Source: an uncultured Saprospiraceae bacterium (GTDB lineage: Bacteria; Bacteroidota; Bacteroidia; Chitinophagales; Saprospiraceae). Taken from it: a DNA stretch of 62,091 nucleotides. Under the pieces are notes generated by a model. It worked only from the letters and a program-made list of their open reading frames with translations, was not told the origin of the DNA and searched no databases. Numbering within the stretch: the stretch's first letter is position 1; each line of letters starts with the position of its first letter. The position numbers and the translations under genes were made by a program. Where the stretch lies: positions 1 through 62,091 of the forward strand of contig CAKZVJ010000197.1 of the NCBI GenBank assembly GCA_937923345.1, read 5' to 3'. Shown one piece after another: positions 46,063-50,745 of the stretch.

Positions 46063-46935
46063 TTATGACAAGGCATCATTATCATTCCGCAAAGAGACAT
46101 GTAATTCTTCCCCACATATTCTGCAAAATCTTGCATCATCTCGGTGGTGATCTTCTCCGCAGTCTGAACAAACTTGCGTATTGAGGTCAATTACTTTTTT
46201 GTTATTTTCTTTGACCATCTCTGCAGATACAATCCCCGTAGGCACTGCTATCACGGCATATCCTAATATCATCACCACCGAGGCCAAAAACTGTCCTAGT
46301 GGAGTAGAGGGGGTGATGTCTCCATAGCCCACCGTGGTCAAGGTGACGATCGCCCAGTATATAGAAGTAGGGATGCTGGAGAAATCTTCATTGAATCCTC
46401 CTTCTACCAAGTACATCACGGAGCCTAAGATGATGGTCATCAAAAATACAAAAGTCAGAAACACTGCTATTTTTTGCCTGCTGGCTTTGAGAGAGTCGAT
46501 GATATATTGACTCTCTTTGAGAAAGTTAGCGAGCTTAAATATTCTAAATACCCGCATCAATCTCAAGGCGCGTACCACGATGAGAAAGTGACTGTTGGGC
46601 AAGAAAAGTTCTAGGTAAGTAGGGATGGTCGCAAGCAAATCTATGATTCCAAAAAAGCTGGTCGCGTACTTGATCGGTCTGTGCACACAATATAGGCGCA
46701 AAGCATATTCAACGGTAAAAAAAATGGTGAAGAACCATTCCAAGACAGACAATTGGGCCTCGTACTTCACTTTGAACCAATCTATACTCTCCAGCATCAC
46801 CGTGATGACACTCAATACGATAATCACCATCAATATGATGTCAAACCATTTTCCAGCTTTTGTGTCCGCTTCGAAAATGATTTCATGTATCCGCTCTCGC
46901 GCAGGACTGAAATCTGATTTTACTTTTTTTGCCAT
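46063..46935 (-). CDS. Voltage-gated-type K+ channel with C-terminal zinc ribbon
   Basis: Six-helix ion channel of 290 residues. The S4-like segment IVVRALRLMRVFRIFKLANF carries regularly spaced Arg residues, the pore helix and filter read TLTTVGYGDITPSTPLG, and S6 follows. This is the Kv/ion transporter family. The cytoplasmic tail is unusual: QVCSDCGEDHHRDDARFCRICGEEL, two CxxC pairs with intervening His, a probable zinc ribbon. No RCK or cyclic-nucleotide domain. Gating by metal or redox is possible but inferred. Single gene. Confidence 0.9.
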   Translation of the reverse strand: MAKKVKSDFSPARERIHEIIFEADTKAGKWFDIILMVIIVLSVITVMLESIDWFKVKYEAQLSVLEWFFTIFFTVEYALRLYCVHRPIKYATSFFGIIDLLATIPTYLELFLPNSHFLIVVRALRLMRVFRIFKLANFLKESQYIIDSLKASRQKIAVFLTFVFLMTIILGSVMYLVEGGFNEDFSSIPTSIYWAIVTLTTVGYGDITPSTPLGQFLASVVMILGYAVIAVPTGIVSAEMVKENNKKVIDLNTQVCSDCGEDHHRDDARFCRICGEELHVSLRNDNDALS

Positions 46936-47757: not shown

Positions 47758-48519
47758 GTGATAAGAGCGATTATTATTGAGGATGAGTTGAATAGCCTCA
47801 AAAATCTAAAAAATTTAATCCAAGAGCATTGTCCTGATATTGAATTATTAGGGACAGCTACTAGTGTAGCGGAGGGTCAGGTACTACTACAAAATCTAGG
47901 TACCAAGATTGATCTAGCCTTCATGGATATTCAGTTATCAGATGGATTGATTTTTAACCTATTGGATCAAAATCCCAACATCACGTTTAATATTATTTTC
48001 GTGACTGCCTTTTCTGAGTATGCTATTCAGGCCTGTAGATATAGTTCTATCGACTATGTGCAGAAACCTATAGATCCAGATAAATTGGTAGAGGCGGTGA
48101 GTCGTTATTCACCCAGAGCAGACGAATCGATCAGTGAACGCTTGGATGTATTCAGAGAGTACTACACCAATCCTAACATATTTTCAAAGATGAGTATCTC
48201 CGCAGTAGACGGAATCTACTTTGTAAATATCAAAGATATAGTCAGATTAGAAGGAGAAGATAACTACACGCATATCTTTTTGGAAAACAAGCAGAAGATA
48301 ACGGTTTCCAAAACTATAAAGTGGTATGCTGATTTATTGGAAAACAAAAATTTCTTTCGTGTACACAAAAAGCATGTGATCAATTTGAACTACATGCAAA
48401 AGTTTGTGAAAGGAGAGGGCGGATATCTTATAATGGATGATAGCAAAGAGATAGAAGTATCGAGAAGAAGAAGACCTGCTTTTATACAGCAGTTAAAGAA
48501 TATGCAAATGGGAATGTAA
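47758..48519 (+). CDS. LytTR-family response regulator
   Basis: Protein of 253 residues from a GTG start. The receiver domain has the acidic pair in IIIEDELNSL, the phospho-acceptor Asp in LAFMDIQLSDG, Thr in FVTAFSEYAI and Lys in YVQKPIDP. The C-terminal LytTR DNA-binding domain follows (IVRLEGEDNYTHIFLENKQK to FFRVHKKHVINLNYM). It should bind direct repeats upstream of target genes. It is followed by a double-glycine peptide gene (108 bases) and a TPR histidine kinase, which together form a likely signalling cassette. LytTR regulators control bacteriocin and pheromone genes in other phyla (AgrA, ComE, PlnC). Confidence 0.93.
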   Translation: MIRAIIIEDELNSLKNLKNLIQEHCPDIELLGTATSVAEGQVLLQNLGTKIDLAFMDIQLSDGLIFNLLDQNPNITFNIIFVTAFSEYAIQACRYSSIDYVQKPIDPDKLVEAVSRYSPRADESISERLDVFREYYTNPNIFSKMSISAVDGIYFVNIKDIVRLEGEDNYTHIFLENKQKITVSKTIKWYADLLENKNFFRVHKKHVINLNYMQKFVKGEGGYLIMDDSKEIEVSRRRRPAFIQQLKNMQMGM

Positions 48520-48626
48520 TACGACAATGTAGTATTACCTCTCAGACGCAAAAGGGATTGTGTTTTTTTTGGAAAGCGCAATATTGTATTTACTGACAAT
48601 TTTTAACATTACGAAAATCCTATACT

Positions 48627-48764
48627 ATGGGAAAATTGGTTAAACTTCAGGACTTGAAGAAGGACCTGTTTGTACTCGACCTTGTGGATATGCAAAAAAT
48701 CAAGGGAGGAAGCAAGCGATCATTTTTCTGGTTTGGTGGTTGGGGAGGTACTGTACCTCACTGA
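48627..48764 (+). CDS. Double-glycine leader peptide, putative pheromone or bacteriocin precursor
   Basis: A 45-residue precursor. The leader ends LDLVDMQKIKGG, which fits the GG-leader consensus LSxxELxxIxGG position by position: Leu-12, Asp-11, Asp-8, Met-7, Ile-4, Gly-2, Gly-1. Cleavage would release the 17-residue core SKRSFFWFGGWGGTVPH, with five aromatics, two basic residues and four Gly. GG leaders are cut and exported by C39-peptidase ABC transporters; none is encoded in this window. There is no Cys, so no lanthionine. It lies between the LytTR regulator and TPR kinase genes on the same strand. A signalling peptide is my first choice, an antimicrobial the second. Confidence 0.8.
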   Translation: MGKLVKLQDLKKDLFVLDLVDMQKIKGGSKRSFFWFGGWGGTVPH

Positions 48765-48840
48765 TTCACTGTCAAGAAATTAACGGGGCACAGTTTTGTG
48801 TACCCGTTTTTGTTATTTTTTGTCTTTACTGTTTTGTCCT

Positions 48841-50745
48841 ATGTATACAGAATCTATTTCTCGACTCGAACAAGCTATTCTATCTAGCGAAGAGCCTATC
48901 CAACGACTTCGTATGCTTGATCAATTGACTGATCAGCTTATTTACACTGATAATAAGAGAGCAAAATTTGCTATTCATCAAATGGAGATGCTGCTAAGGG
49001 AGCATAAAGAGCCTGAGATATTTTTGAGCTATTTGCTGAAAGCAGGAGTGATTCATAATCAAGACTACGATTATGAATTGGCTGAGAGTATGTTTAAAAA
49101 TGCGATCGAAATTTTAGAAACATCTGGGGACGTCAAAGAACAAATCGAAGCATATATTGACTTTGCCGGAGTTTGTATCAATCTGGACAAACTAGATGTA
49201 GCTAGGTATTACATTGCTAAAGCAGAGCGTATATTGCGTGATTTTCCTGAACCAAAACTAAAAGCAAGACTACTCTGTAGAGAAGCAGGAGTACTGCTCA
49301 AAGCAGAAAATTATGATAAGGCGCTTTCTGTTTTTCACAAAGCGCAAAAGAGATTCGATAAGGCGGTAGCCTTAGAAACTAAAGATTATTATTTCCAAAC
49401 AGTCATCCAAAGTGGACTGGGTAATATCTTTGAGCACAACGGCGATGTGAAGCAGAGCGTACAGGCCTATACCAATGTGGTAGACATCTGCGAAAAGAAT
49501 AAAATCAAAGGCCGGATGAGCTGGCACTATCTATTGTGTGGCTTAGGCTACATCGCTTTGGAAGAATATGAAACGGCAAAATCATTTTTTGAAAAATCAA
49601 TATCGACCACCGATGATGATAGTATGGCTGCTAAAGCGGGAGCTTATGCCAATGCTGGGTACTGCCTATTCGAACAAGGCGAAAACAAAAAAGCATTAGA
49701 AAAATATATTGCTGCAGAGAATATTTACGATCAGCAAGAAAAGAAGGATTTAAAGAATCTTTTCTATTTACAACTATGGAAAGCGGAGGCGTACTTACGA
49801 TTGAATAAAAACCAAAAGCGGTCAGATTCTCTTCTCCGCGCTTTTGAGTATGCTAAAGCTAGTGGGAGCAATAAATTATTGGCTATCATGTACCAGTCGA
49901 TTGCTGCTTTTTATGCAGAACAAGAAAACTTCGAAATGGCCTATAAGTATCAATTGATGCACACCAACCATAACGAAGAATATCAACAGGAAGTAAAAGC
50001 AAGAAAAATCACTGAGCTCCAAATAAAGTACGACGCACAAAGAAAGGAGCAAGAATCAGAACTACTGCGTTTGGAGTCAAAAAAGCTTCAGCTAAAAGCC
50101 TTGAGAGCGCAGATGAATCCTCATTTTATTCATAATGCACTCAACTCTATACAGGGCTATATAAGTTCTAATGAAAAAGAAAATGCAGCCAAATACCTTG
50201 CGCAATTTGCGAGCCTAATCAGAAAGAGTCTTTACTATTCTGATATAGAAAGTTTATCTCTTGAAGACGAGGTAGAATTTCTCAAAGAGTATTTAGCCAT
50301 CAATAAAAAACTACGCTACTCTGATCAGATGTCTTACCTGGTCAAGGTAGATGAAGACCTAGAGGAGGACTTGACTTGTCTACCGAGTATGATCGTGCAG
50401 CCTTATGTAGAAAATGCATTAGAGCACGGCATACGAACTAGAAGCGATGGTAAGTTGCTGGTAGAGTTTCTGTATCATACCGACGATACTATCAAGTGCA
50501 TTATTGAAGATAACGGAATCGGAAGAGTAAAAGCAGGCGAAATTCAAGCCAAGGGGGGGTATCATGAGCAGCATAAGTCCATGGGCACCTCTATTACCCA
50601 AAAGAGATTGGAAGTCCTCAAATCTAGCCTTAATAGCCCCGACCTATCTGTAGAAACCATCGACTTGTATGACAAAAATACAGGCAAAGCTATGGGGACA
50701 AGGGTAGTACTGATCCTCCCCGTTGTCGATTTTAAACTCAAATAG
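48841..50745 (+). CDS. Cytoplasmic TPR histidine kinase, LytS/YehU-like catalytic part
   Basis: Protein of 634 residues. Residues 1-390 are about eight TPR-like units (for example YELAESMFKNAIEILETSGD). A coiled coil (QRKEQESELLRLESKKLQLK) and a His_kinase (PF06580) module follow. The phospho-acceptor His is in QMNPHFIHNALNSI, and HATPase motifs are IVQPYVENALEHGI and IIEDNGIGRVKAG. Unlike most Bacteroidota TPR kinases there is no transmembrane helix between TPRs and kinase. The ATG at 48841 gives no signal peptide, so it should be soluble. The frame also opens at a GTG at 48796. The likely partner is the LytTR regulator two genes upstream. Confidence 0.9.
   Translation: MYTESISRLEQAILSSEEPIQRLRMLDQLTDQLIYTDNKRAKFAIHQMEMLLREHKEPEIFLSYLLKAGVIHNQDYDYELAESMFKNAIEILETSGDVKEQIEAYIDFAGVCINLDKLDVARYYIAKAERILRDFPEPKLKARLLCREAGVLLKAENYDKALSVFHKAQKRFDKAVALETKDYYFQTVIQSGLGNIFEHNGDVKQSVQAYTNVVDICEKNKIKGRMSWHYLLCGLGYIALEEYETAKSFFEKSISTTDDDSMAAKAGAYANAGYCLFEQGENKKALEKYIAAENIYDQQEKKDLKNLFYLQLWKAEAYLRLNKNQKRSDSLLRAFEYAKASGSNKLLAIMYQSIAAFYAEQENFEMAYKYQLMHTNHNEEYQQEVKARKITELQIKYDAQRKEQESELLRLESKKLQLKALRAQMNPHFIHNALNSIQGYISSNEKENAAKYLAQFASLIRKSLYYSDIESLSLEDEVEFLKEYLAINKKLRYSDQMSYLVKVDEDLEEDLTCLPSMIVQPYVENALEHGIRTRSDGKLLVEFLYHTDDTIKCIIEDNGIGRVKAGEIQAKGGYHEQHKSMGTSITQKRLEVLKSSLNSPDLSVETIDLYDKNTGKAMGTRVVLILPVVDFKLK

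Follow-up and report, generated by a model that had tools for sequence, protein, structure and literature searches.

The question raised by this locus is what function is served by a small gene for a GG-leader peptide precursor of 45 aa (48627-48764, + strand, ATG start, 45 codons, encoding MGKLVKLQDLKKDLFVLDLVDMQKIKGG / SKRSFFWFGGWGGTVPH) in the window, the 62,091-nt stretch of Saprospiraceae DNA analyzed here. The leader occupies residues 1-28 (48627-48710) and ends in GG; counting back from the GG, it carries Leu-12, Asp-8, Met-7, Ile-4, Gly-2 and Gly-1, as the first-pass annotation had claimed, and the composition given there for the predicted core (48711-48761) is likewise correct (17 residues, with five aromatics, four Gly and no Cys). 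Published recognition by a C39 transporter involves Leu(-12), Glu(-8) and Leu(-7), with positions -4, -7 and -12 packed into a groove (PMC6363468, in the parts of it at hand), and because of this pattern the window leader is a plausible C39 substrate. In a scan limited to Met-started ORFs of 30-90 aa, the strict GG-leader pattern has a single occurrence in the six frames of the window, namely the peptide ORF, and it occurs in 0 of 30 first-order Markov simulations of the window; chance as the source of the motif is thereby ruled out. A random ORF is ruled out as well, by conservation in the family (see below) and by dN/dS against three close relatives (0.043/0.358, 0.043/0.187 and 0.063/0.548); the peptide codons are under purifying selection. 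A check for a longer gene over the locus found none, the overlapping listed frames being only of 37 and 62 aa (+ strand). The peptide has no strongly hydrophobic segment (maximum 12-residue mean 1.22) and no evident Sec signal. No NCBIfam or Pfam model matches it above cut-off, and 21 family members give weak matches only, mostly to generic GG-leader models (the best being TIGR04149, E 6e-4, and LcnG-beta, E 0.0011); its description as a genuine GG-leader precursor outside any named family thus stands.

A LytTR response regulator, the peptide and a soluble TPR histidine kinase follow one another in a conserved triad, all three encoded on the + strand of the window. The regulator (47758-48519, 253 aa, GTG start as listed) contains a receiver and a LytTR DNA-binding domain (Pfam; Response_reg 1.7e-10, LytTR 3.5e-18). 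The sensor kinase (48841-50745, 634 aa), identified by Pfam, a structural model and fold matches, has TPRs at approximately residues 1-385 and a His_kinase domain (PF06580) from ~417. The peptide gene lies 76 bp upstream of it, and the interval contains a terminator-like hairpin followed by a T-rich run (48782-48808, + strand); RNA folding of 48765-48840 gives -16.7 kcal/mol (z -2.3), with a pattern scan finding the stem on the opposite strand only. Tallied over 29 wide loci, the common neighbors are the regulator, in 26, the kinase, in 25, and a K+ channel lying upstream, in 14, so that only the regulator and the kinase adjoin the peptide in more than half of them. The K+ channel-like gene of the window is located upstream of the triad on the opposite strand (46063-46935). 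No modification enzyme recurs beside the peptide in the 29 wide loci, in agreement with the first-pass annotation, which had noted none nearby; that annotation overlooked the flanking two-component genes and also the single Cys that most relatives possess. A 7-bp inverted repeat (48516-48538) was considered as a regulator site and rejected, as it is missing in close relatives. Two variants of the arrangement were seen elsewhere: in G046 one kinase is preceded by a tandem pair of divergent triad peptides (L172:6484-7055), and in G131 a single stop codon and a few codons separate a GG-less peptide from the kinase ORF, the two sharing one frame (L164:430-435).

A first search with the window peptide gave hits at E<=1 in 78 of 199 family genomes, and 29 of the 30 loci retrieved code for a similarly built peptide (L030 is false), with lengths of 45-52 aa except in L024 (44 or 75 aa by the start chosen). 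With a profile of 32 sequences (E<=1e-3) the peptide is found in 178 of 398 Saprospiraceae genomes, and a kinase homologue (E<=1e-60) in 204; both are present in 169, the peptide only in 9, the kinase only in 35 and neither in 185, corresponding to an odds ratio of 99 when phylogeny and genome size are ignored. By genus, the peptide occurs in 57 and the kinase in 60 of 112. Among 108 genomes in which both are listed, 89 place the peptide no more than 1.5 kb upstream of the kinase and in the same orientation, and 19 do not. The regulator stays beside the peptide in several of these 19 (G051, G125, G033, G093, G102, G078 and G168), and because this pair can remain adjacent where the kinase has moved away, it is probably the peptide gene that the regulator controls. 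When 16 loci of kinase-only genomes were read, a divergent peptide was present directly upstream of the kinase in 12; no peptide was found at the other four (G919, G063, G010 and G891, the last with only 0.24 kb upstream). Three genomes (G028, G132, G111) have the kinase and a C39 exporter with no peptide above the profile threshold, and in genus g40 (L115, L117, L122, L127) the peptide has a longer N-terminal part and is located apart from the kinase and regulator, the kinase being kept. A search of 395 genomes of the phylum gave matches below 1e-15 only in the window genome and G006; the other 13 matches (E 4e-4 or worse) cover part of the model, and a phylum-wide distribution was rejected on these weak and partial outside matches. 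Genomes of the order outside the family gave nothing better than E 0.0037 (profile of 21). At the search sensitivity used, the peptide family appears from these sequence comparisons to be close to restricted to Saprospiraceae; in the named collection, every full-length relative of the kinase comes from a Saprospiraceae MAG.

The element conserved across these peptides is the C-terminal tail, which typically reads W-N-N-G-C-G-G-I-x-P-Q. The 64 distinct triad peptides first compared have the leader GG in 63 and Pro at -2 in 63, with Gly at -5 in 52, Gly at -6 in 52, Ile at -4 in 49 and Cys at -7 in 47; the last residue is Q in 52, H in 7, L in 4 and S in 1, and 47 of the 63 GG-type cores contain exactly one Cys. 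In the window the tail is WGGTVPH (48741-48761), in place of the common family type CGGI[VIL]PQ; in genera g26 and g79 the conserved tail is retained without a GG leader. The aromatic, Cys-free core that the first-pass annotation had put forward as the distinguishing feature is therefore to be set aside as a variant of genus g1, local because Trp stands at -7 in the window peptide and in those closest to it. A second paralogous peptide occurs in that genus, with a GG leader and an ending TVPH or IVPQ (L099:5032-5205, L191, L192, L194, L195); in the window's own genome (contig 124, L099) it lies between TPR proteins of 468 and 228 aa (Pfam), and in relatives the flanking ORFs are similar in size. 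The endings of the two g1 paralogues do not co-vary (in G118, G939 and G912 one of them ends in VPH while its counterpart ends in VPQ), nor did a test of the last residue (Q/H/L) against TPR positions give clear co-variation. Genus g1 also has a third GG-leader type, with internal RGGIIDDD or RGGLIEDD (L187, L188, L189, L193), and a genome from another family within the order encodes three tandem Cys-rich GG-leader peptides of another kind (L138:2951-3633).

The first-pass annotation had left it to alignment of homologues to decide between a conserved core, indicating a signal, and a variable one, indicating an antimicrobial or self-recognition; conservation was found, at the C-terminal end of the core, and a signal or ligand is therefore favored over a variable antimicrobial. 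A class II bacteriocin-like peptide, for which the two-component pair would only regulate production, would agree with the GG leader, the short and mostly cationic core, the co-occurrence with C39 transporters described below, and the weak matches of family members to class II bacteriocin models. The tail, however, is conserved and not diversified among homologues from 57 genera, it persists in genomes that lack C39, and no immunity or transporter gene recurrently adjoins the peptide in the 29 wide loci. An antimicrobial is thus very unlikely, and it ranks lower than reading of the tail by the kinase because the tail is conserved and remains with that gene.

The kinase itself is the candidate sensor. 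No membrane segment was detected in it or in any of 54 full-length homologues; its maximum 19-residue mean hydrophobicity is 1.07, compared to 2.7 and 2.9 for two paralogue controls with a membrane segment. The TPR part is modelled at high confidence as approximately nine repeats, and no fold is claimed for the kinase half because model confidence is low there. Polar or aromatic residues with >=80% conservation occupy 14 of 152 positions in the A helices, which are assumed to form the inner face, and 2 of 133 positions in the B helices; N73, N114, R147, R225, W228 and N271 are each conserved at >90%. In fold the TPR part comes closest to LGN (Z 27.2), RapI (24.3), NprR (23.7) and a phage Rap with peptide (22.5), and it also matches RapF. 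In Rap, PlcR and PrgX the peptide is anchored by a key TPR asparagine (PMC3601992, in the parts of it at hand). N114 or N271 would be candidate counterparts in the triad kinase. The fold match supports peptide binding by the kinase and does not show it, because TPR folds are widely alike. The defence library gave only a weak generic TPR match (E 0.001).

The streptococcal ComD is a membrane kinase. A ComCDE-like pheromone that acts from outside, with the soluble TPR kinase working via a membrane partner, would account for the GG leader, LytTR regulator and kinase lying side by side as in comCDE, for a weak match to the ComC profile (E 0.03), and for the presence of a C39 transporter in every peptide-positive genome examined (below). 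It is nevertheless unlikely, as judged from the lack of a membrane segment in all 54 kinase homologues, from genus g26, which retains the tail without GG or transporter, and from the fact that the only conserved membrane protein beside the triad is the K+ channel, in 14 of the 29 loci.

The window genome encodes three C39-peptidase ABC transporters (729-750 aa, with full ABC domains), all unlinked to the peptide. All 58 peptide-positive genomes examined have a C39 exporter, as do 11 of 43 that lack both peptide and kinase (Fisher 2.7e-17); by genus, tallied by hand, the figures are 42 of 42 and 11 of 33 (Fisher 3.7e-11). The genomes were picked by the analyst, and relatedness and genome size may contribute to the association. 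Elsewhere in the window's own genome (contig 294, L100:1148-6584), a C39 transporter and an ORF are followed by a 657-aa protein with a lantibiotic dehydratase N-terminal domain. Genus g26 offers the complementary case, in which the kinase is present and C39 is absent in four of four genomes. Because the profile search missed the peptides of this genus, they were sought by reading of frames and a loose scan (ORFs ending in P followed by Q, H, L or S), which found, directly upstream of the kinase in all four genomes, peptides with the tails YCGVSTPQ, YCGTTTPQ, FCGMPTPQ and YCGSPTPQ, with no GG leader and no hydrophobic stretch. Applied in similar form to the upstream regions of 16 kinases that have no linked peptide, the loose scan returned one unrelated ORF and no such tail. 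In G010, which also has no C39, the regulator and kinase abut with no peptide between them.

With nine later peptides added to the 64, Pro at -2 is found in 72 of 73. Conservation of the GG, on which the first-pass annotation had made its claim depend, stood for 67 of the 73 distinct triad-position peptides and failed for six. Four of the six GG-less peptides come from C39-less genomes, which fits loss of the leader with the exporter; the remaining two (G079, G169), which end in WNSRCGDLLPH, contradict it, as C39 is present in both genomes. On the sequence evidence, the simplest reading would be that the tail goes with the kinase and the GG leader with the exporter, because C39-less g26 keeps the tail beside the kinase and loses the GG. 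The GG-less forms in g26 and g79, which have no signal sequence, together with the linkage of tail to kinase, could also point to an adaptor or inhibitor acting inside the cell: the small protein would accompany the TPR kinase constitutively as a cytosolic cofactor, and its GG would be structural or set levels only. The retention of GG in 67 of 73 peptides, with the pattern at -4, -7, -8 and -12 prevailing, and the strong co-occurrence with C39 argue instead for real export, and make such a cofactor quite improbable.

The reading that we favor, with moderate confidence, is that a C39 transporter exports the peptide and that the neighboring TPR kinase reads the peptide's tail in the cytosol, the signal then passing to the LytTR regulator. 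Through its GG leader the precursor would be cleaved and exported by a C39-peptidase ABC transporter whose gene lies elsewhere in the genome; the conserved C-terminal tail would serve as ligand for the adjoining kinase, bound by its cytosolic TPR domain. The kinase would hand the signal on to the regulator, and the regulator in turn probably controls the peptide gene. Reading of the tail inside the cell could take place before export, in which case export would lower the signal, or after re-uptake. OppA-like binding proteins are uninformative on re-uptake, because they are present in 40 of 40 genomes regardless of the peptide. Weighing against the favored reading are G079 and G169, with C39 and a GG-less peptide, the genomes with a kinase in which no peptide was found, the separate position of the peptide in g40, and the absence of clear co-variation in the tail endings. 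The observations behind this reading are the triad, the purifying selection and the co-occurrence of GG peptide and exporter, to which the association of tail and kinase without GG, the absence of membrane segments from the kinase and its TPR fold are added; from them we infer tail binding, phosphotransfer between the partners, autoregulation and the direction of the effect.

A more specific version, advanced tentatively as possible rather than probable, is that the triad is a Gram-negative counterpart of RRNPP systems fused to two-component signalling, whose kinase senses export flux or a returning pheromone. The TPR histidine kinase would then read the free C-terminal tail and the detachable GG leader would serve the C39 exporter, so that lineages losing the exporter would drop the leader and keep the tail. 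Should the TPR kinase indeed take the tail as its ligand, peptide-gated two-component signalling would be at work in a large environmental family of Bacteroidota, combining two separate designs, the export of GG peptides and the reading of peptides by TPRs; peptide signalling of this kind has been known chiefly from Gram-positive organisms. The lineages with leader loss and the fixed C-terminal motif provide a short ligand for testing and a soluble receptor domain, which puts the question within direct reach of experiment.

The triad has the look of a peptide signalling system, and one whose design is unfamiliar in Bacteroidota. A search of the open-access literature brought up nothing recognized as the triad, although absence there is not absence from print. 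In Bacteroidales clusters, HK/RR or TPR genes near a GG precursor have been remarked on, and the triad is not described in the portions of that source at hand (PMC10352776). Other GG-leader RiPPs of Bacteroidota, including the TIGR04149 peptides, and the bacteroidetocins share with it a GG leader in this phylum; unlike the RiPPs, the triad has no recurrent radical SAM enzyme, other modifying enzyme or linked transporter, and TIGR04149, best of the models among the 21 family members, is absent from the matches of the window peptide. A class II bacteriocin or bacteroidetocin would be expected to kill and to have an immunity partner; no immunity-like gene recurs beside the triad peptide in the 29 wide loci. 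The FimS-type TPR sensor kinases of Bacteroidota similarly carry TPRs before the kinase domain (NCBIfam FimS, E 9e-6), but the match reaches 24 bits against a cut-off of 600, and the triad kinase has no membrane segment and has a peptide gene upstream.

ComC-ComD-ComE and Blp resemble the triad in placing a GG-leader peptide, a LytTR regulator and a histidine kinase in one locus, yet ComD is membrane-embedded whereas the triad kinase is soluble with approximately nine TPRs, and the ComC model gives the window peptide 14 bits against a cut-off of 50. In the streptococcal systems, where peptide, kinase and regulator share a locus, a C39 transporter exports the peptide (PMC7595303, in the parts of it at hand); processing by the three unlinked transporters of the window genome is putative. 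The RRNPP systems (Rap-Phr, NprR-NprX, PlcR-PapR) also pair a small propeptide gene with a TPR receptor, and the 45-aa triad peptide, adjacent to its kinase, is within the 10-100 aa expected of an RRNPP propeptide. Their published signature comprises export by Sec or PptAB and receptors of 250-500 aa (PMC10075063, in the parts of it at hand), unlike the 634-aa histidine kinase and the GG leader and C39 co-occurrence of the triad; RRNPP systems are known from Bacillota, whereas the triad occurs in Gram-negative Bacteroidota (Saprospiraceae). The TPRs of RRNPP receptors bind the mature peptide, and the triad kinase has the TPRs and the modelled fold, with binding putative. Because defining features of RRNPP and of ComCDE are each missing, the triad is distinct from both, and it is called here a form of peptide-linked two-component signalling.
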